A stretch of DNA of 15,902 nt from Candidatus Desantisbacteria bacterium CG1_02_38_46. GTDB lineage: Bacteria; Desantisbacteria; UBA1551; UBA1559. This document shows positions 1-15,902 of this stretch, piece by piece. The translations under genes and the position numbers were made by a program. A model generated the notes under the pieces. The model searched no databases. It was not told the origin of the DNA and saw only the letters and a program-made list of their open reading frames with translations. Every line of letters starts with the position of its first letter. Position 1 is the stretch's first letter. Where the stretch lies: positions 1 through 15,902 of the forward strand of contig MNUO01000042.1 in assembly GCA_001871015.1 (NCBI GenBank). The letters run 5' to 3'.

Positions 1-74
1 ATATCAACTATGCTTATCCCGAGTTCAGGATCCGCCACATCTCTCAATGATTCAATAACATTTTCTCTGCTCAG
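1..74 (-). other. Start of a MIP18/DUF59 (SufT-like) domain at the C-terminus of the UXS protein
   Basis: From about residue 317 the frame reads [18 protein letters not shown] and then ISIVD, the typical first helix and DPELGxxIVD loop of MIP18/DUF59 proteins (SufT, CIAO2-like factors, and the N-terminus of Mrp/ApbC ATPases), which act in iron-sulfur cluster assembly. The linker [11 protein letters not shown] contains two ATG codons that might have been the start of a once separate gene, but no Shine-Dalgarno sequence precedes them. The catalytic or metal-contact half of the domain lies outside the window, so function cannot be judged. Confidence 0.75.
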
Positions 75-1022
75 CGGCCCTTTTCCCGCAGGTTTCATAT
101 GCATTTTGAACCATGCAATAGTGCGGGCAAGACCATCTTCAATTCCAATTTTGGGCTCCCACTGCAAAAACTGTTTAGCTTTGGAAATATCCGGCTGTCT
201 CTTACGTGGATCATCTTTTGGCAGAGGAAGATATGTAATCTCACTCGAGATACCAGTAATTTTTAGAATAAGTTTCGCAAACTCAAGGATGCTCATTTCT
301 GCAGGATTGCCGAGATTTACTGGTTCATTCAAATCACTCATCAACAACCTGTAAATTCCCTCCACAAGGTCATCAATATAGCAAAAACTCCTGGTCTGCG
401 TTCCATCACCATAAACTGTTAAAGGTATATTATTTAAAGCCTGGTAAATGAAGTTGGGCACAACTCTGCCATCGTTTAACCTCATGCGGCCACCAAAAGT
501 ATTAAAAATCCGAGCAATTTTAACATTAATTCCATAAACCCTATAGTATGCCATTGTGAGTGCCTCAGCGAATCTCTTCGCTTCATCGTAGACTCCCCGT
601 GGCCCAATTGAATTTACATTTCCCCAGTAATCTTCTTTTTGTGGATGGACAAGTGGGTCACCATAGATTTCAGAGGTTGAAGCAAGCAGAAACACCGCCT
701 TCTTTGCCTTTGCGAGTCCCAGGGTATTGTGTGTACCTAATGACCCAACCTTCAAAGTTTGAATTGGAAATTTTAGATAGTCCACAGGACTTGCAGGGGA
801 CGCAAAATGTAAAATGTAATCAATGCCCCCATTAATCTCAATTGGTTTGGTTACATCGTGCTCAATGAATAAAAAATTGGGATTGCCCTGAAGATGTGAA
901 ATATTAGAAGGACTTCCTGTTATGAAATTGTCCATGCAGAAAACCTGCCAGCCTTTTTTCACTAAAATTTCACAGAGATGCGAACCAATAAAACCTGCAC
1001 CCCCGGTTATTAAAACCTTCAC
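1..1022 (-). CDS. uxs: UDP-glucuronate decarboxylase (UDP-xylose synthase) fused to a MIP18/DUF59 domain, 3' end outside window
   Basis: Converts UDP-glucuronate to UDP-xylose with bound NAD+; a cytoplasmic extended short-chain dehydrogenase. The first 340 codons are visible. The Rossmann motif [11 protein letters not shown] is at residues 6-16, the STSEIYGD active-site strand at 115-122, and the catalytic YxxxK is Y145/K149. The segments [37 protein letters not shown] and [10 protein letters not shown] follow the UXS family closely and separate it from dTDP-glucose dehydratases. The start is GTG at 1022, because the next ATG would cut into the Rossmann fold; AGGAGG lies 4 nt upstream. The UXS fold ends near residue 305 (AWFK), but no stop follows. 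The frame continues through a short linker into [18 protein letters not shown], the opening of a MIP18/DUF59 domain. It lies directly downstream of ugd, which makes its substrate. The UXS call is firm; the fusion is visible but its far half is not. Confidence 0.94.
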
Positions 1023-2368: not shown

Positions 2369-3904
2369 TCACTCCTTGTGGTTGTAAAATTCTATTCTTG
2401 GGAAAAGAGGATTGCCTTTTCGCACACTTATGCCTGGCTTCATCAACCCCCATTTCAAATCACTCAACCGTTTCTCCTCTATTTTATCGTCCATTCCAAT
2501 CTGACTGTACATTTCCGCTGCCTTACAGGGCATAAATGGAAAAATAAGAATAGCAACGATACGCAAAGATTCCATAAGCGTCCACAGAACAGTATTAAGC
2601 GCAGGGGAATTTTCTTTCTTTAACCTCCAGGGTTGGGCATCTTCAATATATTTATTTGCCCGATTGATAAACTGCCATATTGCCTCAAGAGCAAGGCTGA
2701 AGTCCAATTTTTCCATTAATTCATTAACTCTTTGTAAAATCTTCACGGCATCCTCAACAACCTGGTCATCCATTTCTCTGGGTTGGTTAGAATCGGGCAC
2801 CACTCCCTGAAAGTATTGTTCAACCATTGAAATAGTCCTGTTGAGAAGATTGCCGAGGTCATTTGCCAGGTCTGCGTTAAATCTCTTTTCCATAGCAGAA
2901 ATAGAAAAATTTCCATCCAGGCCAGGTGAAATTTCCCTCAAGAGAAAATATCTTAATGCATCAGCTCCATATTTTTTTACCAATACATCAGTATCCATAA
3001 CATTTCCCAGTGACTTGGACATCTTCCGACCTTCTGCCATCCACCAACCATGAGCAAAAACTTTTCGCGGCAATGACAATCCTGCTGCCAGCAATAAGGA
3101 TGGCCATATCACTGCATGAAATTTAAGAATGTCTTTTCCAACAAAATGAACATCTGCAGGCCACAAATATTTAAATCTTTTTTCGTCGTCAAGATAACCA
3201 GCTGCAGAAATATAATTTAAAAGTGCATCAAACCAAACATATATAGAAAGCCCGGGCTCCTCTGCAACCGGAATTCCCCAGGAAAGTTTGCTGCGGGTTA
3301 TGCAGAGGTCTTTTAATCCCTCTTTAACAAAGTTTATAACTTCGCTCCTGCGGGACGAAGGATTGATGAAATCCGGATGTTCATTGTAATATTGGAGAAG
3401 AACATCGCCATATTTTGAGAGTTTAAAAAAATAACCTTCCTCCTCAAGTTTATGAACTTCTCTATTACACTCCGGGCATTTGTCATCTTTTAACTGAGTC
3501 TTTGTCCAGAAAGATTCACAGGGAACACAATACCACCCGCTATATTTTCCTTTGTAGATATCTCCAAAACTTACAAGATTTTGAAAAAACTTTTGCACAA
3601 CTTTAATATGTCTCTCTTCTGTTGTTCTGATGAAATCGTCATAGGAAATTGAAAGAGATTGCCAGAGGTTTTTAAAATGAACAACCATCCCGTCTGCCAG
3701 CTCCTGAGGTTTTACATTCCTCTTGTTTGCTTCTGCTTCTATCTTCTCGCCATGCTCATCTGTTCCTGTAAGAAAAAATACATCGTCCCCTTTTAGTTTT
3801 CGATAGCGGGCTAATGTATCTGCCACCACACAGGTATATGCATGCCCGATATGAGGCTTATCGTTCACATAATACAAAGGCGTCGTTATATAGAATTTAC
3901 TCAT
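2369..3904 (-). CDS. metG: Methionyl-tRNA synthetase, short form without C-terminal tRNA-binding domain
   Basis: Charges tRNA-Met with methionine using ATP, in the cytoplasm. The protein has 511 residues. The class I signatures are clear: HIGH at 18-21 and KMSKS at 294-298. Four cysteines (C126, C129, C143, C146) in WYCVPC and KCPEC form one zinc knuckle in the connective-peptide region. TGTDEHGEKIE and GWWMAEGRKMS are family hallmarks. The length is that of synthetases lacking the C-terminal EMAPII/Arc1p-like domain; the anticodon-binding helical domain ends near the C-terminus. The ATG start gives the canonical MSKFYITTPLYYVN. It lies 15 nt after the giant gene's stop with no clear Shine-Dalgarno sequence, and its TGA overlaps the first ugd ATG by one base. 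Confidence 0.98.
   Translation of the reverse strand: MSKFYITTPLYYVNDKPHIGHAYTCVVADTLARYRKLKGDDVFFLTGTDEHGEKIEAEANKRNVKPQELADGMVVHFKNLWQSLSISYDDFIRTTEERHIKVVQKFFQNLVSFGDIYKGKYSGWYCVPCESFWTKTQLKDDKCPECNREVHKLEEEGYFFKLSKYGDVLLQYYNEHPDFINPSSRRSEVINFVKEGLKDLCITRSKLSWGIPVAEEPGLSIYVWFDALLNYISAAGYLDDEKRFKYLWPADVHFVGKDILKFHAVIWPSLLLAAGLSLPRKVFAHGWWMAEGRKMSKSLGNVMDTDVLVKKYGADALRYFLLREISPGLDGNFSISAMEKRFNADLANDLGNLLNRTISMVEQYFQGVVPDSNQPREMDDQVVEDAVKILQRVNELMEKLDFSLALEAIWQFINRANKYIEDAQPWRLKKENSPALNTVLWTLMESLRIVAILIFPFMPCKAAEMYSQIGMDDKIEEKRLSDLKWGLMKPGISVRKGNPLFPRIEFYNHKE
2372..2377 (-). promoter_or_regulatory. Shine-Dalgarno AAGGAG of ugd, inside the end of metG
   Basis: AAGGAG encodes part of the last two metG codons. 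It lies 2 nt before the ATG at 2369 and 5 nt before the ATG at 2366. The spacing favours the second ATG as the ugd start, giving the normal N-terminus MKICVIG. Confidence 0.75.
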
Positions 3905-3919
3905 CGTGAAATATATATC

Positions 3920-6900
3920 TTATCGTATTACCACAATCTTACCAATCTTCTTTTCTTTTGTATCATCAGTTAAGAAGTAAATGTACACTCCACTTGAAAC
4001 TGGTTCATTGTAATTGTTTTGTGCATGCCAGTCATAATTACCACTGAGGTTATCCTTTTCAAATATAAGTTCACCTGCAATGTTGTAGATTCGTAGTTGC
4101 ACATTTGAAGTAAGTCCTGTGAAGCGTATGGCTGTGTGTCCAGGACCTGGCTTGAATGGAACTGGATATGCATAAGCATCCTTTATGGACTTAACTTGAA
4201 TATTAGGAGATACGAGGGCACGCATTGAAGAAGAGCTTTGAGTGGATGTATCTGGGGCACCAATCTTAATTACCCTATTATTGTTCTCATCTACAATTAA
4301 AAGATTACCTTTCTTGTCAATAGTGAGTCCTGCAGGCTTATTGAGGAATAAATTTGGACTATCCCCATTTACTGACAAGAATTTTGCAACAAGATTTCCA
4401 TATTTATCAAACTTTGCAATTGAATCAGAATTTGTATTTGAAACATAGATATAGCCCCTGGAATTGACAATGACAGAATTTGGCTTGTTAAGACCTGTTA
4501 CAACAAGCATTGTTTCGCCATTTGAATTCAATTTCACAACCCTGTCATTGTTTCTATCAGCAATATATATGTTAGATTTAGAATCCACAAATACACCTTC
4601 TGGTTTATTGAATCCAGTGAATTGGGCAAGGAATGTACCATGTGAATCAAACTTCTGAATTCTGTCATTGTTTCTATCAGTAACATATAATTTGTTCTGG
4701 CTGTCAATGAAAATTCCTTCTGGCTTATTGAATTCAGAAGGATTATGCCCATTTTTGCCAAATGAATAGAGGAAATTGCCATTCAAATCAAACACCTGTA
4801 TCCTATCGTTATTCCTATTAGCAACATATATTGCAGGTGATTCACCTTTTGAAATTGCAATACCACTTGGCCCATTAAATTCTTTTTCCTTTTTGCCATG
4901 CTTACCGAATTCGAGTATGAAATTGCCTTCAGGGCTGAATTTCTGAATTCTGTGATTAAGACTATCAGTGATGTAAATATTTCCTGTATCATCCAGGCAA
5001 ATTCCATATGGATGGTTGAACTTGCCCTGTTCTTTTCCTTTTCCTCCAATTGTTAGAAGCAATTCTGGTTTTCCTATATAAATTGAGGGTGAGTCAATGG
5101 AAGTGTTATTTACTCTATCAATTGCGGTTATCCTTAAGATATAATAACCATCTGCAAGCCCTAAAGTATTCAGGATTGCAAGTTCTTGATTTGCTTTTTG
5201 CTCACTACTCTCTATAATTGTCTGCCACTGTGTATCTGGTTCACCTTCCTTCTTAATTTCAACTCTGTAATTCAAGAAGTGCTGGTCAAAGACATTTCCA
5301 ATTATTGGAACTGTCTCATTATTTATTATTTTGCACAAGCCATAATCCTGTTTTGAAGGAGAAGTTAGTTCACAGACTGGTGCAATGTTATCTAAGAACA
5401 CTGTCCTTGTGTTTTCCTTTTCCTTATTTAAAACATTGTCAGTGCTATAATATGAGATTGCGTGAATTCCATAAGTAAAACTTTCAGAAGGAATGTTGAA
5501 AGAAGAAACATATGTAGACCATGTTTCATTGTCTATCCTGTAGTATGTATTTGCTATTCCTAAACCAATGCTATCACCTACCTCAATTAAATCATCTATT
5601 ACTGTAAGGGTAAATGTAGTTGTGCTTGAAATAAGTGTGGGTGTTTCGCCGTATTTCGGCTCACCAATAGTTATACTTGTCCTCGGTGGAAGAATATCGT
5701 GAATTATTGTAAATTGTCCACTCGTCTCAACTCTTGTATTTTCAACAAAATCCTTTACCTGCACCGTCAATATCCACTGACCTGACGGAATATTCAATGG
5801 GTCTGTTTCCCAGCCATTATACACAGGAATTGTTTCGCCACCAGTGTCAATATGAGTAAGGAATGTAACAACCTGCGGATCCGTATCAGCATTGTCAATT
5901 ACAGTGAAGTCAATTTTTAATTTATCCTTCTTTGCCACATAGGTTTCGCCTGGAGAAGGAACATTAATTGTAATGGTGGGGGCGGCATTGTCTACGAATA
6001 CAGTGATTGATTTTGTTTCTTCGGTATTTCCAACTTTATCAATGCTTCTGAAGTATATCGTATGAGTTCCTTCACCAGTAATATTAAATGGCAAAGTGTA
6101 TGTATCCCAAATAGTTTCTGTTTCAGATCTATATTCTGTCTTTGCTACACCCAGACCGATACTATCTCTTATTTCAACCAAATCATCTACTGCAGAAAGA
6201 GTGAGTGTTGTTGCACTTGTGACAAATGCTGGGGTCTCTCCATATTTTGGCTCGCCGATTACAATGCTTGTCCTGGGTGGGAGAATATCGTGGATGATAA
6301 TAAATGGACCACTTAATGGACCTCGGCTTTCAGTGGAAACATTACCCACAAAATCTTTCGCATAAACTGTCAATATCCATTCGCCAGAAGGAACAATGAA
6401 TGGTTCAGTTTCCCAATAACCACTATAGATAGGAATGGTTCCTGCACCGGTAGCAGAAGAAACCAGAGACGCAAATATTCGAGGATTAGAATCGGCGTTG
6501 TCACTTACAAGAATATTTATTGTAAAGGTATCTTCCTTAGAATAGAATATATTAATTGTTATCGTAGGAGCAGTATTATCTACGAACACAGATATGGATT
6601 TTGTTTCCTCAATATTTCCCAAGTTATCAATAGCATGGAATAAAATAGTATGCGTTTCTTCGGATTCAAAAGAAATATTTATTATTGAAGAAGTATCGCT
6701 TTTCCACTCGCTACCATCAATTTTATATCCAATCCTGTTTACTCCAGCAAAGGTGTCATAAGCAGTAAGTCTAATCATTGTACCTGAAGTAATATATGCT
6801 GGCGCAGTGCCATGCTGAGGTCCAACAAGAGTCAGTTGAGTAGAAGGAGGAGAATTATCGACAATCACGGTAAACATATTGGGGATTAACTCCGCATTTC

Positions 6901-9900
6901 CCATTGTATCAAAAGCATAACAGGAAATAATATGAACACCTTCGGTAGGTATAGTAAATGGACCTGTATATGTATTCCAGACGGTTTCAGTATCGAGTCG
7001 GTATTCTATTCTTGCCACTTGCGCTGTATCCCCGACTACAACAAGAGAAATAGTGCTTGCAGAAGTAATAACGGTTGCTTTCAAAATTTCACTGTAATAT
7101 GAAGGGCTATCAATACGTACATCAGTCTTGGGCGGATTACTTACCATCACAAAAAACATTTTATTCTCTTCAATGTTTCCTGCTCTGTCAACAGCCCTAT
7201 AATTTACAAAATGCATTCCTTCAGAAAGAGAAAAAGAATCTGCATAAACTATCCACTGTCCTCCATCAACTTGATACTCAATAACTGCAATTCCTGACGA
7301 AACTTTATTTACCTCAGGGTCAGTAGAAGTAATGGTGTATGTATTTGTAGGTGAACTATACAGGTTCTTGTATAAAGAAACTGATGGCGTAAATGCACTC
7401 TGCGGTGGAGTAGAATCCACCCCAATCCATCCTGCTCCCTGTTTATACCTCATAATTCTATTATTCGTAGAATCGCTAATATAGAAATTCTTGCCGCTGG
7501 AGTCTATTAGGAGTGACATTGGCGTTGTAAATTGTGTTTCGGTGTCATAACTTCCAGAAATCTGAGATTGCGTATCATAACCAGATATTTTCATTGAGAA
7601 AGTCGGGATTTGTGGATTGCCTATGTTATCGAATTGTGAAAATTTCTGGATGCTGTGTTTCCCGATGTCAGAAACATAAATATATTTTTCACTTGGGTCA
7701 AGAGTAATTGCTTGCGGAGAAATAAATTGCTCCCCATTTAAAATAAATGGACCAAGTTTCCAGATAAAATTGCCGTTTCTATCAAATTTCTTTACACAGG
7801 AATTTCCACTATCCACTACATATACAAATCCGAGGGAATCTACATAAATATCGATCGGCTGTGACAATTGAGTATCTTCTCCTGTATTTCCTGAACCAAT
7901 CTTTAATACAAAATTTCCATCCTTATCAAATCTCTGGATGCAATTCTTTTCTTTATCTGCAACATAAATGTTTCCTGCAATGTCTAAGGAAATGCTTACC
8001 GGATTTTTGAACTTACCATCTTCATCTCCATAGCCACCCCTTTCCCATATCTTCCAGCCATCTGAATTGAATTTGTACATAAGAGGAATGGGACCAGGAA
8101 TAGTAGGATCTCCAGAATCTATAACGAGGATATTTTCTTCGTTATCAATTGCAATGTCTCTGGGTGATTTTAGAGACGCTTCACCAATCTCGCCAAATTT
8201 TGAAACAAATCTACCATCTGAGGTGAATTTTTGAATCCTGTTATTTCCCATATCGCAAACAAGGATGTTTCCTCTATAGTCAATTGCCATACCGAGTGGA
8301 TAATTAAACTTGGCGTTCCCTGCTCCAAACTCTCCAAACTTCAGGAAATATACCATTGTATCACTGTTGATTACTTCAGTTGCTTCTGGAAGAAGATTAA
8401 ATTCAAAGAAATATGCACCATCAGGAACATCTTGACCCATAATGTCTTTTCCATTCCACATCTCAGAATTAATACCTATGTTTTTATTCTTATATTCCCC
8501 CATCTTTATCGCATTGTAATTCCAATCGTAAACTTCCATATTTAATGCCTGAGGCTTAGAAAGATTGAAGGAAATTGTAGCAGTATCTTTTTCTGGTATT
8601 AGAAATTCCGGATAACTAAGGTTTGTGATGTCCATTGATTCTCTACGTTTGTTGTGCACGATAACAGTTTTTGAATCCTCTCTTGTATTTCCCATGCTGT
8701 CTTCGCCAATAAGTCTGATAACATAGATATTATCTTCAATGTTAGAAGTATTCCATGCCCCTAATATGGTATTTACTTTTGTATCTCCTGAAGAACAAAT
8801 CTCCTTCCAGAAGTATGGGTTTGTGCCAAGACCATATTCAAGAACATATTTCTTAAGATTTGACCTACCGAGATTATCAGTATCAATTGCAGTGCCAATG
8901 ATATTTACTATTCCACTTAAAATATCATTTTCTCTGGGATTTGAGATTTCTGCTACAGGTGGAACTGTGTCGGGAAGAACAACTGAAATTGTCCCGATTT
9001 CAGAAGAATATTTCCAGGTATTGCCATTGTTTCCAGAAAATCTTGTGGTATATTGATATTCTCCTATTGGCAAAGGCCCAATTGTAGTCTTATATTCGTC
9101 ATTTATTCCTCTGTCTTGGAGATAATCCATATCCATTGTTCTTAAAATACCATTAATTGATTCCACAATTTGTGAAGTGTCTGAAAAATTATTAGAGAAT
9201 TGCCCGTCTGGTTCATAAGAGGTAGCATAATTTACTGTCACGGAATTTACTACTGGTGAAACAGAAGGATTGTCTGTTGCCATCTGACATCTGAATTGAA
9301 CCCATTTTTTATCCGGTAATCCATATATCTTGTGTCCATTGTATGCCCTATACCACCTTGCTGAAGATAATTTTTCTTTTGGATCCGCAGTTCTAACATC
9401 AAAAGTAATATTTTGCCCGTTAGTATTATAATCTGCTTCAAAAATGCCGTAGTATGGAGTATCTACTCCACTATTATGAGCAGCAGAAACATAAGTACCT
9501 GAAGTGTAATAGTTTCCTAACGTATATGCGCTTCTTGTCGGTGAGCCATCTGCATAAAGAATAGAATGTTCATCCTCTGTTAATGCCTTTCCTTCCCATA
9601 TGATTGGTTCATCAATTACACCATTAAAATACTCACTGGGGCTATTATTCCTCGTCCAAGCACCAATTCCAAGTATCTGAGCACCAGCACTTGCACTCTC
9701 TGTATATGTCCCAGAACCAACCAGACTACCATCAACATATAATTTTATACTTCCATTGTTATATGTTACGGCCACCAAATGCCAAGCATTATCACGCAAA
9801 TCAGGCCCCCCATACACGTGTTTCCAGCCACCACTATGTTTCTCACAACTAAATGTCAATGTAGTGCCCACAAGCATCCCCCAACCAAATTGCTCCACAT

Positions 9901-12900
9901 AAGTTGTATTATCTCCTTGCCCCATAACCTGCTTCCTGCTTCCAGCATCATACGTAGGTATCTTGACCCATGCTGAAACTGTAAAAACTGACGACGACGA
10001 GATGCTATGATTTGGAGTTTCAACCCACTGAGCCAAACCCGTAACAAATTGCCTTGCGTTACCAATCTTACCATCTACAACTGCTGGACTATTATGAGGA
10101 GTCCCGTTATTGTCATTAGAAGTTTGATCATATAAAGTTCCACTTGTTTCTTCAAGTTGCCAAAAAGCAGTTATATTAGATAATTGAGGAAGTCCTAAGG
10201 ATAATTTTACAGCTCCAGGACTGCTGATACCTTCAGTGTGATAATATGTACCGGCCTCCCAATCGGCTTGAGAATCGACAAGAAACTGGGAAACAGCAGC
10301 CTCAAGCTCAGTAATCCTTAAGTTATCAAAAGATACTTTTGCGTTATAGGTAACAAGAGCAAACCCACCACTTAATAGACTATCATCTCTTCCCCAAATT
10401 TGCCACTCAGGAGGTTCATTTTGACCCTTTTGCCACATTTTGGCATAGAAATAACTACCCATGACTTTAATCTTTAAAGTAACCCATTCATTATTCAATT
10501 GAGGGAAGGAATACACAGTAGCAGGAGTGTATAAATCAATAGGGGAAGAACCTTCTATAACTTTTTTAATTTTAAGTTTTCCTTCGCTCCAACTAAGCAA
10601 ATAGAAGTTATTTTCATCAATCAACCGGAATGCCATACCTAATAATTCAGAATTTTCTCCTTCGAATTTTGCGTCTACAGTTGCAATGTATGAAGAATAA
10701 CCCGGCCAATTGCCTGGCAATCCAAACATATATCCTTCACTTTCCTGAGTATATACTCCTTCCTCTATTTTATAACTTCCCTTCTTGCTTAACCATACCT
10801 GTCCTGATATACTTTCACCCTTTCCTGCACCATCTGTCACACCGGGAGAATAAACTTGGCAGAATATAGTAACAGTTTCTGTATTATTCATTTTTATAGG
10901 TTTATCTGCACCAGGATAAAGACTAACTACACTTGCTATTTCAATAAGTGTAGCGCTGGCAGAATCAGAATGCGAGCTCTGGTTTCTTGCTAAATCTACT
11001 GCTGTAACTGTGTAGACAGGAGACTGATTACCTAAAAGTAACCCGCCCTCATATTTATTATTAGTTGTTGTATCAATAGCAATTCCGTCGCAATAAATGA
11101 CATAATAAGCAAAATCAATCTCGCGATTATGGTCCCAGGTTAAATATATTGGCTCATCTGGTTGAGTAATAGTAATATTTAGACCTGTGGGTTTTGCAGG
11201 TGGTTCGGTATCACTCTGGATATTTACAGAAGGAATGTGCGATTTAGAAAGGAAGAAATAAGAAAATCCCTCAATCTGAGCGGTAACGGTATATGTCATT
11301 GTATCAATGTAGCAGGGAAGATATTTCAATTCCTGTGTTGATGGATGAAACACAAACAGACCAAGCATTGTTTCTGGAAAAGTAAGTTCACTAGGATCAT
11401 AGTGGAAGGTAAGAGTTGCTGGCTTTATGACTTCGCCGTTTGTGTCCGTGATAAAATCCTCTTTTGAAATTGATGGGGAAAATATAAAGGTGGGACCTGT
11501 GGGCTGAAAATCAGGATTAAAAACAGGAATTTCAGAAGAATCCACTACAGAAATTGTAACCAATTTATCAGATTTTAGTGAGCCCCGAGGGAAATTAATT
11601 GTTGTCTGGGCATATGGGTCAGTTGCTACCCCACCATTCTCTGCTGAAATTAACTGTCCGATTTGCAGAGTTGTCTTTTGTGATTCTTTCAGATTTCTAT
11701 CGCCATCAAATACCGTGAGAACAAGAGTATATATTCCATTAAGTCTTGTAACATTCCAATATGCTAATGTTCCGGTATCCACAGGAACATTTGATTCTTT
11801 GATAAGATTCCACTTTTCGGGTGATTCTCCTTTTCCATATTCCAAGTAATATTTGGAAAAACTACTACAATTAGCACTGCCTGTAATTTTAATGAAAGTT
11901 TTGCCACTGTATGGAATTTTCAAACGGGCAGTAAATCGGTCATCAAAGGTATACGTGGTAGTATCTACACTTACAACTAAAGTCTCTCCCTGAACTTTAC
12001 CAGACAGATCGGTAAGTAAAATATCTGAATTAAGGGAGTTTGTTCCGGGATAATAAGGACCACTAATAACCCATTTGCTATAATGTGGTTCATAAATAAG
12101 ATCACAGGGAGCATAATTTAACTTTTTAAAAATATCTATCGAAGAAGTTTCACCATAATAAATCACATTGTCGGAAGACATTCCACTCGTACTCCAGGCT
12201 TCGGACACATCAGTGGAAGCAAACAGCATGCCAGTCCTGCTATCAACAGTATCTGTATCGCCAATATATGTAGCCACAGTGATGCTGGTATCTTCCGTTG
12301 AGTACCGTGTGGAGGGATAATTGATGCTTAAAATATCTGGCCCCCCAGAGCCAATTCCCCCTGCATATGAAGTAATATATTTTCTTCTCTGTGTCAGATT
12401 GACTCTACTAGTTCCAGTTTCAATTTGTTGCCATTCTCGAGTGGTAGGCACATTCCACCAAACTTTAATATTTATCCGTGGATTGTTAATAGTCCAGCTC
12501 CATGGTGCCAATATCCAGGCGTACATATAATAACTATCTGGATTAAGCCATTGACTACCATAACCTTCATACCATCTGAAGAAGTAAGGAGGGAAGAAAA
12601 TAGGATACCACCATGTCGTCTCATTATGAGAAGGACTTACGCCTATGTAGGGATTAAGACATTGTGCACCAAAATCCTGCGCTCCAAAAGCCTGAAAATC
12701 TCCATATATCTTAATATATGTAGTGACATTTTGCCCGTATGGAATATAAAACAATTTTTGGTCACTTGTGCCATCCCACGCCCCACAGGTAATATATAAT
12801 TCTTGGTTTTTCTGGGTTGGATAATATTCTATTCCCCTTGCTGTTATAGTATATCCAAAATGTTGCCAGGGATAATAAACTCCGTTTCCTGTAGCACACC

Positions 12901-15900
12901 ACCCAAAATACGGCTTGCCATCTTCGACACCGTAATTGAATATTGAAGAAGCAAGGTTTGCCGGAGGATTTATGCCTCTATCCAGCGTAATTCCTGCAAC
13001 TTCGGTATCTACACTTGAACCTTTCCTTGCAGAGAATACGCAGGTATAAAATCCAGCAGTACAAGGAGAAAGGGAATCATTTCTCCCATTCCATTTTGCT
13101 GTATGGACTCCAGCAAGGGTTTCTGAGATAAATGTTTTTATAGGAGAGGCAGTTGTATCTGTGCCTGGATAAATCCTTAAGTAGGAAATATCTACATCTT
13201 TTGAAATAGTGTATGTGATAACCGCTGTATCCTTAATTCCATCAGTGTCAGGAGAAAAAACATCAGGAGAGACGTTTATTTCTACCTTTAAGATGTTAAA
13301 AACATTTAGTGGGGCCACAATGGTGGTTTTTGTATTCCCTGCTTTATCCTGCACTGTCAGGCGAATGGCATAGGTATCATCTGCAATATCCCAAGTATTC
13401 CATGATGCCAGAGTTCCTGAAGTTACAGCACTTGTTATGGTATCACCTGTACCGTTCCATGATGAAGGTGTTTCTCCCCAACCATATTCAACCAGATAAA
13501 ACCCGAAATTACTGTTGCTAACATCAGCAGTGCCTGTAATGTCTACTACACCAGAAACACTTCCAAGTGAAGGCGAAGTAATATTTGCTGTTATATCTAC
13601 AGAGGATGTATCCCTGGTTATAATCATTCCTTTTTTATCAGTAAATGTTTCGCTTGCAGTAATAGTGCACCAGTAATTCCCATCAATCACTCCTGTACCA
13701 CCCCATTCAACAGAATGACTTCCTGCAGGTTTATCTTCATTTACAAGGGTGGCAATAAACACTCCTGTTTCATTATAAATACTAATGTTAATATGGGTTT
13801 TGACTGGAATTGAATAATGAATTGTTGTTGTATCTTTTATACCATTATTATCCGGGGAGAATGGATTTGGAGAGGCACTGAAATTATAGATTTCAAATAC
13901 ATTGTCAACGTTGACATTCACTGTTGCTGTATCCAGAAGCAAACCATCGGAGTCAAGAATATTCATTTTAAGGACATAGTTTCCATTTGGAACCTGCATT
14001 GTATTCCAGGTTGCAAGAAGTCCGTTTGTAATCTGAATAAGGGAAACATTGGGGTCAGTGCACCAGTAACTGGATGGAACCGGTATCGGTGTCCAGGAGG
14101 AAGTATCTGGAGACAAAGCATAAAAAATTGAATATCCAGCGAATCCCGCAGGGTTAACAGCATTCCCATATAATGAAATCACTCCATTTATTGTTTCACC
14201 ATCTTTTGGAGAAGTAATTCCGATTGGAATCTTACTTTTTACTACTACACAAGTTCGCTCTGCAATATTCCCAGCCCCATTCATCACTTGAATCTTAATA
14301 ACATATGCTCCATCAGGAACAGTATCTCCGCTATCGTTCTTTCCATCCCATAATTGTTCAAAAGAATTGTAGTGACAGAGTTTACTCTGCACATATGCAA
14401 GCGTTTCTTCCTTATTATTTGATAACACTCTCACAACATTGCTATCCTTATCTATTATCTTCGCTATTACCCAAACCTTGTTTGATGAACCGTCGCTGAT
14501 ATTATAATATAAGGTAGTGGTATCGCGATTTACTTTGCCGGGGGTGAATATAAAGGGAGAGCAGAAGGGCTGGGAAATCTTTGGTGGAGAATTGTTTGGC
14601 AATACTACAAATGAATCACTGAAATCATTTATGGGAGCGATGAGAATAAAAGAATCTGGCTTGTTTTCAGAATAAACTAATTGTAGTTTGCCTGAAACAA
14701 TTTTGTATAGTCCTAAATTATTCTTGATTAGTTCAGTATCAGCAATTTCATCTCCTGTGATATCAAAATCAATGTCTTCGTAAGTGTATTTGAATTTTAG
14801 GCTGGCTTTTTGTTTTTGACCAGAAGTATCAGCATTAAAATCATCTGCTGTTAACCCGGGTTTAATCTCATAAATATGCCCAACTGGTTTGAATAATGGG
14901 TTTGGTAATGTAGTAGCAAGGTTTACTTTGCTTATTGTATCAAGGGGTGAAATTGTAATATAATTCCTTCCTTTTAATGCCTGCGGTGGAAACCACAGTT
15001 CCATTTTCCTATAAGAGTCATATGCTGTAGCACTCCAGTTATCATCTGTGCCCGGGACTTTTGTTCCAAGATAATATGTCGTTGAATTCACTTCCTGCCC
15101 GCTGATTCTGCATTTTACTTGATATTGCCCATTTAATCCTGTAGTTTGCCAAGTGTATAATGTACCGTACATCGGACCCGGGATTTTACTTGAAAAACTT
15201 TTCACATCCCAAACAGTTGGATTTTCTCCTTCTCCAATTTCGATGTTATAACCATTCCACTGACTCGCATCTGCATTACCTTGTAGTTTTACAAATGTCT
15301 TGCCTTGGTAATCATTGTTTAACTTTGCCTTGAACCTTGTCATTCCTTCTATTTTGTAGTTGCCTGATTCATCAGGCTCAAGTAGGTTTCCATTTTCATC
15401 AAGGAATACAATGTCTGGATTTATCTCCCCATTCAGATATTGTGGTTTGGATAACTTGTAGGTATTTGTTGGCAAATCTATATTTTTCTCAGGTAATGCT
15501 CCCCCATAGTCACCAAATGAAAGAGATTGAACTTCTGTAGTTATGACACTGCCACTTGAATCAAGAATAAAATACTGAAATTGTGATGAGTTTTCAGGAA
15601 TCAATATCATCCCATCCCTGGGATAGGAAATGCCAACGAGATAGATATTATGGGGGTTGCTGGCACTATAATAATTGGCAGGGTTGTTTGCCATTACAAA
15701 AACAGTGTTCTTGCCTCCAGCAGCTAATGTGGCAGTCTCTGAAAAATATCCAAATGTATCAAAATCAATTTGTTGAGCTATTTGATTACTGAAAACTAGT
15801 TTTGCGTCTAACTTATGCAATAAATAATCCCAGAGATTGCCAGTGATAATTATTCCTGGTTTAGTTATATCCTGCAGGGTATTATTTGGTAGTGGCTTGC

Positions 15901-15902
15901 TG
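3920..15902 (-). CDS. Giant multi-modular surface protein with two NHL propellers, LamG, OmpL47-type repeats and a T9SS-like C-terminal domain (5' end outside window)
   Basis: At least 3993 residues in one uninterrupted frame, open to the right edge, so the true start and any signal peptide are not visible; a TTG at 15820 is only an internal codon. Residues counted from the first full codon in the window: unassigned N-terminal region 1-185; WNT module 186-278; ZU5-like 296-434; FlgD-like 443-554; WNT 555-667; FlgD-like 669-764; WNT 766-867; FlgD-like 870-979; aromatic-rich region 992-1270; WNT 1314-1412; ZU5-like 1413-1556; fibronectin III 1563-1654; jelly-roll 1700-1867; split beta domain holding LamG 1870-2220; WNT 2307-2419; FlgD-like 2422-2514; NHL propeller 2514-2823; OmpL47/Ig block 2827-3510; WNT 3505-3613; NHL propeller 3613-3881; Ser-rich linker; C-terminal FlgD/T9SS-like domain 3905-3993. 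All modules are typical of secreted adhesive or glycan-binding proteins. No catalytic domain is recognised. Likely exported and held at the cell surface; the ligand is unknown. Confidence 0.97.
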   Translation of the reverse strand, partial: SKPLPNNTLQDITKPGIIITGNLWDYLLHKLDAKLVFSNQIAQQIDFDTFGYFSETATLAAGGKNTVFVMANNPANYYSASNPHNIYLVGISYPRDGMILIPENSSQFQYFILDSSGSVITTEVQSLSFGDYGGALPEKNIDLPTNTYKLSKPQYLNGEINPDIVFLDENGNLLEPDESGNYKIEGMTRFKAKLNNDYQGKTFVKLQGNADASQWNGYNIEIGEGENPTVWDVKSFSSKIPGPMYGTLYTWQTTGLNGQYQVKCRISGQEVNSTTYYLGTKVPGTDDNWSATAYDSYRKMELWFPPQALKGRNYITISPLDTISKVNLATTLPNPLFKPVGHIYEIKPGLTADDFNADTSGQKQKASLKFKYTYEDIDFDITGDEIADTELIKNNLGLYKIVSGKLQLVYSENKPDSFILIAPINDFSDSFVVLPNNSPPKISQPFCSPFIFTPGKVNRDTTTLYYNISDGSSNKVWVIAKIIDKDSNVVRVLSNNKEETLAYVQSKLCHYNSFEQLWDGKNDSGDTVPDGAYVIKIQVMNGAGNIAERTCVVVKSKIPIGITSPKDGETINGVISLYGNAVNPAGFAGYSIFYALSPDTSSWTPIPVPSSYWCTDPNVSLIQITNGLLATWNTMQVPNGNYVLKMNILDSDGLLLDTATVNVNVDNVFEIYNFSASPNPFSPDNNGIKDTTTIHYSIPVKTHINISIYNETGVFIATLVNEDKPAGSHSVEWGGTGVIDGNYWCTITASETFTDKKGMIITRDTSSVDITANITSPSLGSVSGVVDITGTADVSNSNFGFYLVEYGWGETPSSWNGTGDTITSAVTSGTLASWNTWDIADDTYAIRLTVQDKAGNTKTTIVAPLNVFNILKVEINVSPDVFSPDTDGIKDTAVITYTISKDVDISYLRIYPGTDTTASPIKTFISETLAGVHTAKWNGRNDSLSPCTAGFYTCVFSARKGSSVDTEVAGITLDRGINPPANLASSIFNYGVEDGKPYFGWCATGNGVYYPWQHFGYTITARGIEYYPTQKNQELYITCGAWDGTSDQKLFYIPYGQNVTTYIKIYGDFQAFGAQDFGAQCLNPYIGVSPSHNETTWWYPIFFPPYFFRWYEGYGSQWLNPDSYYMYAWILAPWSWTINNPRINIKVWWNVPTTREWQQIETGTSRVNLTQRRKYITSYAGGIGSGGPDILSINYPSTRYSTEDTSITVATYIGDTDTVDSRTGMLFASTDVSEAWSTSGMSSDNVIYYGETSSIDIFKKLNYAPCDLIYEPHYSKWVISGPYYPGTNSLNSDILLTDLSGKVQGETLVVSVDTTTYTFDDRFTARLKIPYSGKTFIKITGSANCSSFSKYYLEYGKGESPEKWNLIKESNVPVDTGTLAYWNVTRLNGIYTLVLTVFDGDRNLKESQKTTLQIGQLISAENGGVATDPYAQTTINFPRGSLKSDKLVTISVVDSSEIPVFNPDFQPTGPTFIFSPSISKEDFITDTNGEVIKPATLTFHYDPSELTFPETMLGLFVFHPSTQELKYLPCYIDTMTYTVTAQIEGFSYFFLSKSHIPSVNIQSDTEPPAKPTGLNITITQPDEPIYLTWDHNREIDFAYYVIYCDGIAIDTTTNNKYEGGLLLGNQSPVYTVTAVDLARNQSSHSDSASATLIEIASVVSLYPGADKPIKMNNTETVTIFCQVYSPGVTDGAGKGESISGQVWLSKKGSYKIEEGVYTQESEGYMFGLPGNWPGYSSYIATVDAKFEGENSELLGMAFRLIDENNFYLLSWSEGKLKIKKVIEGSSPIDLYTPATVYSFPQLNNEWVTLKIKVMGSYFYAKMWQKGQNEPPEWQIWGRDDSLLSGGFALVTYNAKVSFDNLRITELEAAVSQFLVDSQADWEAGTYYHTEGISSPGAVKLSLGLPQLSNITAFWQLEETSGTLYDQTSNDNNGTPHNSPAVVDGKIGNARQFVTGLAQWVETPNHSISSSSVFTVSAWVKIPTYDAGSRKQVMGQGDNTTYVEQFGWGMLVGTTLTFSCEKHSGGWKHVYGGPDLRDNAWHLVAVTYNNGSIKLYVDGSLVGSGTYTESASAGAQILGIGAWTRNNSPSEYFNGVIDEPIIWEGKALTEDEHSILYADGSPTRSAYTLGNYYTSGTYVSAAHNSGVDTPYYGIFEADYNTNGQNITFDVRTADPKEKLSSARWYRAYNGHKIYGLPDKKWVQFRCQMATDNPSVSPVVNSVTVNYATSYEPDGQFSNNFSDTSQIVESINGILRTMDMDYLQDRGINDEYKTTIGPLPIGEYQYTTRFSGNNGNTWKYSSEIGTISVVLPDTVPPVAEISNPRENDILSGIVNIIGTAIDTDNLGRSNLKKYVLEYGLGTNPYFWKEICSSGDTKVNTILGAWNTSNIEDNIYVIRLIGEDSMGNTREDSKTVIVHNKRRESMDITNLSYPEFLIPEKDTATISFNLSKPQALNMEVYDWNYNAIKMGEYKNKNIGINSEMWNGKDIMGQDVPDGAYFFEFNLLPEATEVINSDTMVYFLKFGEFGAGNAKFNYPLGMAIDYRGNILVCDMGNNRIQKFTSDGRFVSKFGEIGEASLKSPRDIAIDNEENILVIDSGDPTIPGPIPLMYKFNSDGWKIWERGGYGDEDGKFKNPVSISLDIAGNIYVADKEKNCIQRFDKDGNFVLKIGSGNTGEDTQLSQPIDIYVDSLGFVYVVDSGNSCVKKFDRNGNFIWKLGPFILNGEQFISPQAITLDPSEKYIYVSDIGKHSIQKFSQFDNIGNPQIPTFSMKISGYDTQSQISGSYDTETQFTTPMSLLIDSSGKNFYISDSTNNRIMRYKQGAGWIGVDSTPPQSAFTPSVSLYKNLYSSPTNTYTITSTDPEVNKVSSGIAVIEYQVDGGQWIVYADSFSLSEGMHFVNYRAVDRAGNIEENKMFFVMVSNPPKTDVRIDSPSYYSEILKATVITSASTISLVVVGDTAQVARIEYRLDTETVWNTYTGPFTIPTEGVHIISCYAFDTMGNAELIPNMFTVIVDNSPPSTQLTLVGPQHGTAPAYITSGTMIRLTAYDTFAGVNRIGYKIDGSEWKSDTSSIINISFESEETHTILFHAIDNLGNIEETKSISVFVDNTAPTITINIFYSKEDTFTINILVSDNADSNPRIFASLVSSATGAGTIPIYSGYWETEPFIVPSGEWILTVYAKDFVGNVSTESRGPLSGPFIIIHDILPPRTSIVIGEPKYGETPAFVTSATTLTLSAVDDLVEIRDSIGLGVAKTEYRSETETIWDTYTLPFNITGEGTHTIYFRSIDKVGNTEETKSITVFVDNAAPTITINVPSPGETYVAKKDKLKIDFTVIDNADTDPQVVTFLTHIDTGGETIPVYNGWETDPLNIPSGQWILTVQVKDFVENTRVETSGQFTIIHDILPPRTSITIGEPKYGETPTLISSTTTFTLTVIDDLIEVGDSIGLGIANTYYRIDNETWSTYVSSFNIPSESFTYGIHAISYYSTDNVLNKEKENTRTVFLDNIAPVCELTSPSKQDYGLCKIINNETVPIIGNVFDQHFLNYRVEIKKEGEPDTQWQTIIESSEQKANQELAILNTLGLADGYYILRITAIDRVNNTSIDSPSIYIGKPELLLTIGGKGKEQGKFNHPYGICLDDTGNIYITDSLNHRIQKFSPEGNFILEFGKHGKKEKEFNGPSGIAISKGESPAIYVANRNNDRIQVFDLNGNFLYSFGKNGHNPSEFNKPEGIFIDSQNKLYVTDRNNDRIQKFDSHGTFLAQFTGFNKPEGVFVDSKSNIYIADRNNDRVVKLNSNGETMLVVTGLNKPNSVIVNSRGYIYVSNTNSDSIAKFDKYGNLVAKFLSVNGDSPNLFLNKPAGLTIDKKGNLLIVDENNNRVIKIGAPDTSTQSSSSMRALVSPNIQVKSIKDAYAYPVPFKPGPGHTAIRFTGLTSNVQLRIYNIAGELIFEKDNLSGNYDWHAQNNYNEPVSSGVYIYFLTDDTKEKKIGKIVVIR
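3923..4185 (-). other. C-terminal FlgD/T9SS-type sorting-like domain
   Basis: After a Ser-rich linker (STQSSSSMR) come AYAYPVPFKPGPGHTAIRF, LRIYNIAGELIFE, EPVSSGVYIYFLTD and the terminal KKIGKIVVIR. The order YPxPFxPG, xIYxxxGxL, PVxSGVYxY and a basic tail is that of FlgD-like T9SS type A sorting domains. Function as a secretion or anchor signal is inferred from that likeness; whether this organism has a T9SS cannot be seen here. Confidence 0.8.
4258..5062 (-). repeat. NHL propeller 2 (six NHL repeats)
   Basis: Six repeats, more regular than those of propeller 1. Blades carry GNIYITDSLNHRIQKF, DRNNDRIQKF, DRNNDRVVKL and the like, with NKPEGxFxDS openings. Blades 3 and 4 are exactly 40 residues each, and their DNA shows a 120-nt direct repeat. 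It is close to the C-terminal sorting-like domain, so it would be surface-proximal if that end is the anchor. Confidence 0.94.
4542..4737 (-). repeat. 120-nt direct repeat inside NHL propeller 2
   Basis: CTGTCATTGTTTCTATCAG occurs identically at 4542-4560 and 4662-4680, and CCTTCTGG-TTATTGAA at 4596 and 4716, both 120 nt apart. A looser copy follows at 4801-4820. It encodes the DRNNDRI and NKPEG parts of neighbouring blades, so this is gene-internal duplication, not a mobile or CRISPR repeat. Confidence 0.88.
5068..7425 (-). repeat. OmpL47-type/Ig repeat block (five OmpL47-like units, two interposed Ig units, then WNT module 6)
   Basis: OmpL47-like units lie near 7133-7420, 6850-7132, 6560-6850, 5965-6285 and 5375-5690. 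Each shows PPxT...GxxxxEYRxDxxxW, then a HxIxFxxxDxxGNxE strand and FVDNxAPT. Two Ig units with PSGxWILTVxxKDFVxN sit at 6290-6560 and 5690-5965. The two Ig+OmpL47 pairs are a 591-nt tandem duplication. The block ends with WNT module 6 (YRVEIKKEGEPDTQW, LAILNTLGLADGYYILRI). It is probably a stiff stalk between the two propellers. Confidence 0.82.
7433..8358 (-). repeat. NHL propeller 1 (six NHL repeats)
   Basis: Six repeats can be counted, each with a P-x-x-[IL]-x-[IL]-D opening and a [IV]-x-D-x-x-x-x-x-[IV]-x-[KR]-[FY] strand pair, for example GNILVCDMGNNRIQKF and GNIYVADKEKNCIQRF. Blades 2 and 5 carry extra loops. Six units is the usual number for a closed NHL propeller, which binds proteins, glycans or nucleic acid. 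Confidence 0.92.
8360..8635 (-). other. FlgD-like Ig module 4
   Basis: NLSYPEFLIPEKDTATISFN, MEVYDWN, then MWNGKDIMGQDVPDGAYFFEF. The WNGKDxxGxxVPDGAYxF closing is the FlgD-like signature. Confidence 0.75.
8645..8980 (-). other. WNT module 5 (Ig-like)
   Basis: PPVAEISNPRENDILSG, YVLEYGLGTNPYFW, LGAWNTSNIEDNIYVIRL and DSMGN. It is a well-kept copy placed directly before an FlgD-like module and the first NHL propeller. Confidence 0.78.
8981..9230 (-). other. Linking beta region with Y_Y_Y-like ending
   Basis: About 80 residues between the split domain and WNT module 5. The segment GPLPIGEYQYTTRFSGNNG and then TWKYSSEIGTISV resembles the short Y_Y_Y-type sandwich found beside propellers, but the match is weak. 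Confidence 0.35.
9240..10292 (-). other. Beta-sandwich domain apparently split by an inserted LamG domain
   Basis: The first part, QADWEAGTYYHTEG...GAVKLSLG (10195-10290), resembles the opening of a common surface module. The usual continuation, YYTSGTYVSAAHNSGV...ITFDVRTA...WVQFRCQMATD...VNSVTVNY (9240-9520), appears only after the LamG domain. The two pieces fit one domain interrupted by LamG. Confidence 0.6.
9543..10185 (-). other. LamG-like (laminin G/concanavalin A) domain
   Basis: AFWQLEETSGTLYDQTSNDN, IGNARQF, FTVSAWVKIP, NAWHLVAVTYNNGSIKLYVD and FNGVIDEPIIW follow the LamG pattern in order: W-LdE opening, SNdNnG, FTVSAWVK, WHLVAVTYdgG, FnGxIDEvxIW. Such domains bind glycans or matrix molecules, often with calcium. 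Confidence 0.93.
10300..10800 (-). other. Jelly-roll (concanavalin/GH16-like) beta domain
   Basis: About 167 residues with YIATVDAKFEG, GMAFRLIDENNFYLLSWS, EWVTLKIKVMGSYFYAKMW and GGFALVTYNAKVSFDNLRI. This is the fold seen in DUF1080/LamG-like sugar-binding domains: two-sided sandwich strands, WxxLKIxVxG, and a closing FDNLxI. No catalytic acid pair is visible, so binding rather than hydrolysis is more likely. Confidence 0.72.
10940..11212 (-). other. Fibronectin type III domain
   Basis: Begins PPAKPTGLNITITQP, then IYLTWDHN, DFAYYVIYCDG, and ends YTVTAVDLARNQS. The Trp in the B strand, the YxIY C strand and the YxVTAVDxxxNxS closing are standard FN3 marks. Confidence 0.87.
11235..11664 (-). 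other. ZU5-like beta domain 2
   Basis: GGVATDPYAQTTINFPRGSL, LVTISVVDS, then DFQPTGPTFIFSPS, PATLTFHYDPSEL and LGLFVFHPSTQELKYLP. The order follows the usual ZU5 outline (GGxV, xIPxGAL, VTI) and aligns with the copy near the N-terminus. Confidence 0.6.
11665..11960 (-). other. WNT module 4 (Ig-like)
   Basis: GKTFIKITGSA, YYLEYGKGESPEKW, LAYWNVTRLNGIYTLVL. The opening matches copy 1 (GKTFVKLQGNA) more closely than the other copies, and both are followed by a ZU5-like domain. Confidence 0.75.
12090..12930 (-). other. Unassigned aromatic-rich region
   Basis: About 280 residues that match none of the beta modules around them. A 42-residue core (12494-12619) has 7 Trp, 7 Tyr and 4 Phe, including TTWWYPIFFPPYFFRWYEGY. 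The flanking part includes YFGWCATGNGVYYPWQHFGY and IKVWWNVPTTREW. It is too rich in Trp, Tyr and Pro for an ordinary membrane helix. It could be a carbohydrate-binding or assembly segment; I cannot name a family. Confidence 0.55.
12965..13290 (-). other. FlgD-like Ig module 3 with SPDTDGIKD loop
   Basis: VSPDVFSPDTDGIKDTAVIT opens the module, followed by LRIYPG, AKWNGRNDS and a GFYTCVF strand. The acidic DTDGIKD loop repeats that of FlgD-like module 2. Confidence 0.75.
13300..13605 (-). other. WNT module 3 (Ig-like)
   Basis: ITSPSLGSVSGVVDITGTA, YLVEYGWGETPSSW, LASWNTWDIADDTYAIRL and DKAGN. This is one of the best preserved copies and a good consensus source for the family. Confidence 0.78.
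13606..13895 (-). other. FlgD-like Ig module 2 with SPDNNGIKD loop
   Basis: NPFSPDNNGIKDTTTIHYSI, a short IYNETG strand, then VEWGGTGVIDGNYWCTI. The DxxNGIxD loop resembles the acidic loop seen in gliding-type and T9SS-associated surface modules and could bind calcium; that is inference. Confidence 0.78.
13900..14239 (-). other. WNT module 2 (Ig-like)
   Basis: Opens with ITSPKDGETINGVISLYGNA, continues YSIFYALSPDTSSW, and closes with LLATWNTMQVPNGNYVLKM. It keeps the WNT half well; the YGxG half is changed to YALS. Confidence 0.7.
14240..14575 (-). other. FlgD-like Ig module 1
   Basis: SPFIFTPG...TTTLYYNISD...WDGKNDSGDTVPDGAYVIKI is the FlgD Ig-like pattern: an opening PFxFxPG, a central WDGxxxxG and a closing DGxYxxxI strand. 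It is followed directly by WNT module 2. Confidence 0.75.
14600..15015 (-). other. ZU5-like beta domain 1
   Basis: Contains FPPQALKGRNYITISPLD, LFKPVGHIYEIKP, DDF and ASLKFKYTYEDI. It aligns by eye with the domain at 11235-11664 and has the FPPGAL...ITI opening of ZU5-type beta modules. The family name is tentative. Confidence 0.5.
15070..15345 (-). other. WNT module 1 (Ig-like, degenerate)
   Basis: GKTFVKLQGNA, then YNIEIGEGENPTVW, then LYTWQTTGLNGQYQVKC. This is the most diverged of six copies of a module with the pattern YxLEYGxGxxPxxW followed by LxxWNTxxLxDGxYxIRL. It pairs with the ZU5-like domain that follows, as does copy 4. Confidence 0.65.
15346..15902 (-). other. Unassigned N-terminal region of the giant protein (window edge)
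   Basis: About 185 residues without a fold I recognise, for example GIIITGNLWDYLLHKLDAKL and KNTVFVMANNPANYYSASN. The strand-rich, Asn/Ser-rich character fits an extracellular domain whose beginning lies outside the window. No signal peptide or membrane segment is visible. Confidence 0.5.

Follow-up and report, generated by a model that had tools for sequence, protein, structure and literature searches.

UDP-xylose synthase (UXS; UDP-glucuronate decarboxylase) enzymes are dimers. Proteins of the DUF59 (PF01883, MIP18-type) family, SufT among them, harbor a conserved cysteine (PMC4982691). In Mycobacterium tuberculosis, this cysteine of SufT is required for homodimerization and for the binding of SufS and SufU, and the protein binds no cluster itself (PMC9045647). 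A survey of 761 SufT homologs in SufBC-containing genomes complete by October 2011 listed fusions with a scaffold, Rieske, CysE, thiolase, P-loop NTPase, DUF1858, and PqqD, and no fusion with a sugar-nucleotide enzyme (PMC4982691). Our literature searches found no published fusion of DUF59 with UXS or with an epimerase.

The DNA stretch analyzed here (the window; 15,902 nucleotides) is an entire contig (C84) of Candidatus Desantisbacteria bacterium CG1_02_38_46, whose genome of 1.73 Mb is distributed over 133 contigs. A sequence-only reading of the window had proposed that a UXS gene at its left end runs in frame into a MIP18/DUF59 domain, either as a genuine fusion or through loss of the stop codon between two former genes. 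The comparison within the phylum covered two genomes, this one and a second (G001) from another family in the same order.

Results

The UXS gene continues into DUF59 across two contigs

A minus-strand frame of the window (positions 3 to 1022) begins with a GTG codon at 1022, runs without a stop up to the contig edge (base 3), and is truncated there by the left end of the contig. On inspection, a Shine-Dalgarno region (TTAGGAGGAAAG before the GTG) was found at 1023 to 1034 on the same strand. The frame encodes residues 1 to 340 of a 397-residue product, as established from the open frame and the overlap described below. Residues 1 to 308 (99 to 1022, minus strand) form the UXS domain, which aligns end to end with UXS1 structures and matches PF01370/PF16363. 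From the end of UXS the frame continues straight through a linker, MKPAGKGPL (residues 309 to 317; 72 to 98, minus strand), which is delimited by the last residue aligned with UXS1 and the first one matching PF01883, into the opening residues of DUF59 (residues 318 to 340; 3 to 71, minus strand). With the domain limits set here, the linker has about 9 residues rather than the 11 of the earlier reading. The window covers only the first 22 of the 73 positions of the PF01883 profile, and its scores of 15.2 bits for the whole frame and 21.7 bits for the tail only lie below the cut-off of 23.5, so that the window alone is suggestive but not conclusive.

The sole PF01883 match in a profile search of the genome (68.5 bits) is located on another contig, C24, whose terminal 280 bp are identical to bases 1 to 280 of the window. 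C24 (L112:5287-5460) supplies the missing 57 codons together with the stop codon. The joined contigs encode an in-frame 397-residue protein with UXS at residues 1 to 308, a linker of about 9 residues, and a complete DUF59 domain at the C terminus (about 319 to 394; 64.8 bits, profile positions 1 to 73 of 73). Extension to the left, as the sequence-only reading had recommended, thus bore out its assignment of the tail to MIP18/DUF59.

The TGA of the fusion gene (C24:5287-5289) overlaps the ATG of nrdJ, a gene for B12-dependent ribonucleotide reductase. This ATGA overlap (L112:5287-5290 on C24) suggests that the two genes may be translationally coupled in the window genome. In G001, unlike in the window genome, the two genes are separated by about 177 bp.

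Upstream of the fusion gene on the same strand are ugd (1050 to 2372; UDP-glucose 6-dehydrogenase, TuaD-like; TIGR03026, 465.6 bits, cut-off 189.8), whose annotated product supplies the substrate of UXS, and metG (2369 to 3904; methionine--tRNA ligase; NF008900, 752.3 bits, cut-off 598). At 1036 to 1083, ugd and the fusion gene are separated by a perfect palindrome, AAAAGGGGACGCTTCTATTTTT...AAAAATAGAAGCGTCCCCTTTT. Copies of its arm number 24 in the genome at no more than 2 mismatches (12 per strand; 0 for the control), and this dispersion identifies it as a REP-like repeat. The palindrome also extends into the end of ugd, where the last residues of Ugd (YKGIGR in G001) appear to have been replaced by it. 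The remainder of the window harbors a single minus-strand frame (3920 to 15901; at least 3993 residues) that is still open where the contig ends on the right. By eye, it contains repeated Ig-like and NHL-type (beta-propeller) stretches, and its C-terminal end is FlgD-like (AYAYPVPFKPG...SGVYIYFL).

The fusion is conserved in a second family

The same fusion was found in G001. Here the gene encodes 398 residues and is situated mid-contig in a single 36-kb contig. The order metG-ugd-uxs::DUF59-nrdJ-FMN reductase (an FMN-reductase-like gene) is common to both genomes. The two fusion proteins are 75% identical, and that of G001 likewise matches PF01883 at positions 1 to 73 of 73, with 66.4 bits. 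The linker is in frame in both, with no stop or frameshift in either of these two independent genomes. Between them, second codon positions are identical at 89, 75, and 94% for UXS, linker, and DUF59, respectively, and third positions at 39, 42, and 34%, which corresponds to saturation. The dN values (NG86) are 0.17, 0.18, and 0.14 in the same order, and dS was not computable, as saturation predicts. This pattern of codon positions indicates that, in each of the two lineages, the DUF59 part has stayed in frame and under constraint at the protein level.

Our results confirm that the UXS::DUF59 fusion is real and conserved. Because the window breaks off within the gene and the assembly comprises 133 contigs, an assembly chimera, a sequencing indel, or a recent loss of a stop codon had to be considered. 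The contigs are bridged by the exact overlap of 280 bp, and the same architecture in another family, mid-contig and with the same flanking genes, nearly refutes such an explanation, which we consider extremely improbable; an assembly artifact was rejected on the basis of the overlap and the second genome. Presence of the fusion in the second genome and the constraint on it argue against all three possibilities. Of the two origins initially proposed, the genuine fusion is supported, and a recent join by stop-codon loss is disfavored because the join is common to both families and the protein is under constraint.

Conservation of Met307 and Met309 between the two genomes raises the possibility that the gene gives rise to two products, the full-length protein and a free DUF59 domain, through an internal start at one of these residues or through proteolysis. 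The actual gene starts are preceded by AGGAGG or GGAGG in the two genomes (AGGAGG in that of the window), whereas no Shine-Dalgarno sequence was found by inspection before the ATG codons of the linker in either genome, in agreement with the earlier reading. An internal start was rejected on this basis, and we regard the formation of two products as very unlikely.

The UXS half appears intact

Residues 1 to 308 align end to end with the human UXS1 structures 4gll and 2b69 (E about 1e-116). Over residues 2 to 309, the UXS1 structures reach about 390 bits, compared with 140 bits for the next family, so the full-length similarity is to UXS1 over other extended SDR enzymes. The NAD-binding GGxGxxGxxL motif, TSE, YxxxK, and the C-terminal Arg motif (DDPxxRxPDI) are kept in both fusions when aligned with 4gll; we take these motifs to contain the NAD-binding and active-site residues. 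The UXS half thus retains an apparently intact UDP-glucuronate decarboxylase, which would convert UDP-glucuronate to UDP-xylose. The adjacent ugd gene supports the predicted decarboxylation. The UXS genes of two unrelated genomes (L156:737-3118 in G002 and L157:588-2909 in G020) are each interrupted by an in-frame intein, about 460 residues long. Both inteins are inserted at the same site, after IFN and before TYGP, and carry intein-splicing and LAGLIDADG domains (PF14890, PF14528).

The DUF59 half retains its core motifs and lacks the usual C-terminal end

The DPE and TTPxCP motifs of DUF59 are intact in both fusions when aligned with TM0487, which has DFE. The single conserved cysteine, Cys369, is found in TTPHCPL in one fusion and TTPNCPL in the other. 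Family membership suggests a role for the fused domain in the maturation of iron-sulfur proteins. The domain stops short of the W-containing C-terminal tail found in most stand-alone relatives, and its scores against the SufT equivalogs are below the cut-offs (69.8 versus 143.4 bits for TIGR02945 and 66.5 versus 202.6 bits for TIGR03406, scored for the domain), so we class it as a DUF59 domain and not as SufT.

The missing tail and the low SufT score also mean that the fused domain may have drifted from its usual role. DUF59 might have left iron-sulfur maturation and now serve UXS as a tail with a structural or regulatory function. It could, for instance, stabilize the dimer or, through its one cysteine, adjust the synthesis of UDP-xylose to the thiol, iron, or redox state. 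Loss of the W-containing end of most free DUF59 proteins would fit this possibility, as would a host enzyme that lacks an iron-sulfur cluster and the strong conservation of both halves together. However, the core DUF59 motifs and the single cysteine are all intact, although a tail of purely structural function could do without them, and the closest free-standing DUF59 relatives are short-tailed as well. We therefore regard a structural or regulatory tail as possible but unlikely.

The neighbors of these closest free-standing relatives (by eye, an ABC transporter, a HAD-type phosphatase, and an Rrf2-like regulator) provide no clear functional lead. The structure of one DUF59 protein, PDB 2cu6, is titled "dTDP-4-keto-L-rhamnose reductase-related," which might hint at an older link with sugars; nothing was found to support such a link.

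Iron-sulfur machinery in the two genomes

In profile searches, the fused domain was the only PF01883 found in the window genome and in G001, and neither genome gave a match to SufB/D (PF01458), for which 14 of 14 control genomes were positive; as the genomes are 88% and 93% complete, a further DUF59 or a SufB/D may have escaped detection. The co-occurrence with SufB/SufC used as a test for SufT was not observed, as judged on PF01458 (SufB/D) alone; sufT without sufBC has been reported for 68 of 1669 genomes (PMC4982691). Each genome harbors one NifU_N (IscU/SufU-type) scaffold, and a scaffold of this type seems to be the basis of iron-sulfur assembly in the phylum. A strong match to Mrp-type ATPases is present in the window genome, in a frame of 268 residues without a DUF59 of its own, and G001 has only weak matches to this family.

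Retention of the fusion across two families, as the only DUF59 of each genome, could mean that functional coupling has been selected, with the tail either recruiting the iron-sulfur machinery to a pathway of sugars or of the cell surface or tying UDP-xylose production to iron-sulfur status. The genes adjoining the fusion (metG, ugd, nrdJ, and the FMN reductase gene) include neither an iron-sulfur gene nor an iron-sulfur enzyme of sugar metabolism, and no precedent was found in the literature. The lack of an adjacent iron-sulfur gene also speaks against an ordinary maturation role of the fused domain. Selected coupling is quite unlikely in our judgment.

Distribution and phylogeny

Among 108 distinct full-length UXS homologs from many phyla, none carries DUF59 (0/108), and C-terminal extensions reach at most 23 residues. 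When 386 genomes were searched with a query spanning the junction, the fusion was found only in these two genomes among the matches listed; the listed matches in other genomes were to the DUF59 half. In six genomes of one other order (that of G094), essentially only the UXS half was matched. Widespread occurrence of the fusion in bacteria was rejected on the basis of these three sets.

The UXS and DUF59 trees both group the two fused sequences (support values of 100/98 and 96/92, respectively), and this is consistent with a single origin of the fusion. The nearest relatives in the UXS tree, with moderate support, are sequences from Omnitrophota.

Discussion

The explanation that we favor, at about an even chance of being correct, is a lineage-specific fusion in which UXS is active and its dimer displays the only MIP18-type iron-sulfur maturation domain of the genome. 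The join would have taken place, most simply once and before the two families split, between the ancestral uxs gene of a metG-ugd-uxs cluster and a gene encoding a short iron-sulfur maturation factor of the DUF59/MIP18 type. The N-terminal half would produce UDP-xylose from UDP-glucuronate supplied by the neighboring Ugd and, as UXS is a dimer, two DUF59 domains would be displayed per dimer; the related SufT of M. tuberculosis acts as a homodimer. DUF59 most likely keeps its ordinary job of helping to mature iron-sulfur proteins, and its single conserved cysteine would engage sulfur-transfer or scaffold proteins. Since SufB/D was not found, the partner would be the IscU/SufU-type scaffold. No sequence evidence was seen for a chemical coupling of the two activities, and the covalent link most likely provides coexpression and a ready dimer platform rather than coupled chemistries. 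The comparisons establish the fusion, its conservation, the intact motifs, and the lack of any other DUF59 or SufB/D match, whereas both activities, the dimer platform, and the single origin are inferred. A stronger proposal, that the phylum's only MIP18-type domain works solely as a tail of UXS and so ties sugar-nucleotide synthesis to iron-sulfur maturation without SufB/D, is distinctly improbable.

The architecture is a new combination of known domains, and no new mechanism is demonstrated. A stable fusion to a well-understood enzyme without an iron-sulfur cluster, carrying the sole DUF59 detected in genomes in which no SufB/D was found, represents a natural test of whether DUF59 is an interaction module that is independent of its attachment or plays a further role connected with sugar-nucleotide enzymes. 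If this gene were annotated from its N-terminal half alone, one would overlook the only DUF59 of the genome.

Human UXS1 (4gll and 2b69) resembles residues 1 to 308 of the fusion over its whole length and in its motifs, but human and other known UXS proteins have no DUF59. In ArnA (PDB 1z7e and 8gjh), a related UDP-glucuronate decarboxylase domain is also part of a natural fusion; there, the decarboxylase is joined to a formyltransferase that acts in the same pathway, whereas the DUF59 partner described here has no known place in the UXS pathway. TM0487 (1uwd), TTHB138 (2cu6), and SufT contain the same domain with its DPE and TTPxCP motifs. These proteins stand alone, whereas the fused DUF59 is the C-terminal tail of an enzyme and is without the W-containing end. 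In known DUF59 fusions such as the Mrp/HCF101-type P-loop NTPases, as here, DUF59 is combined with another module and retained within a lineage (PMC4982691).
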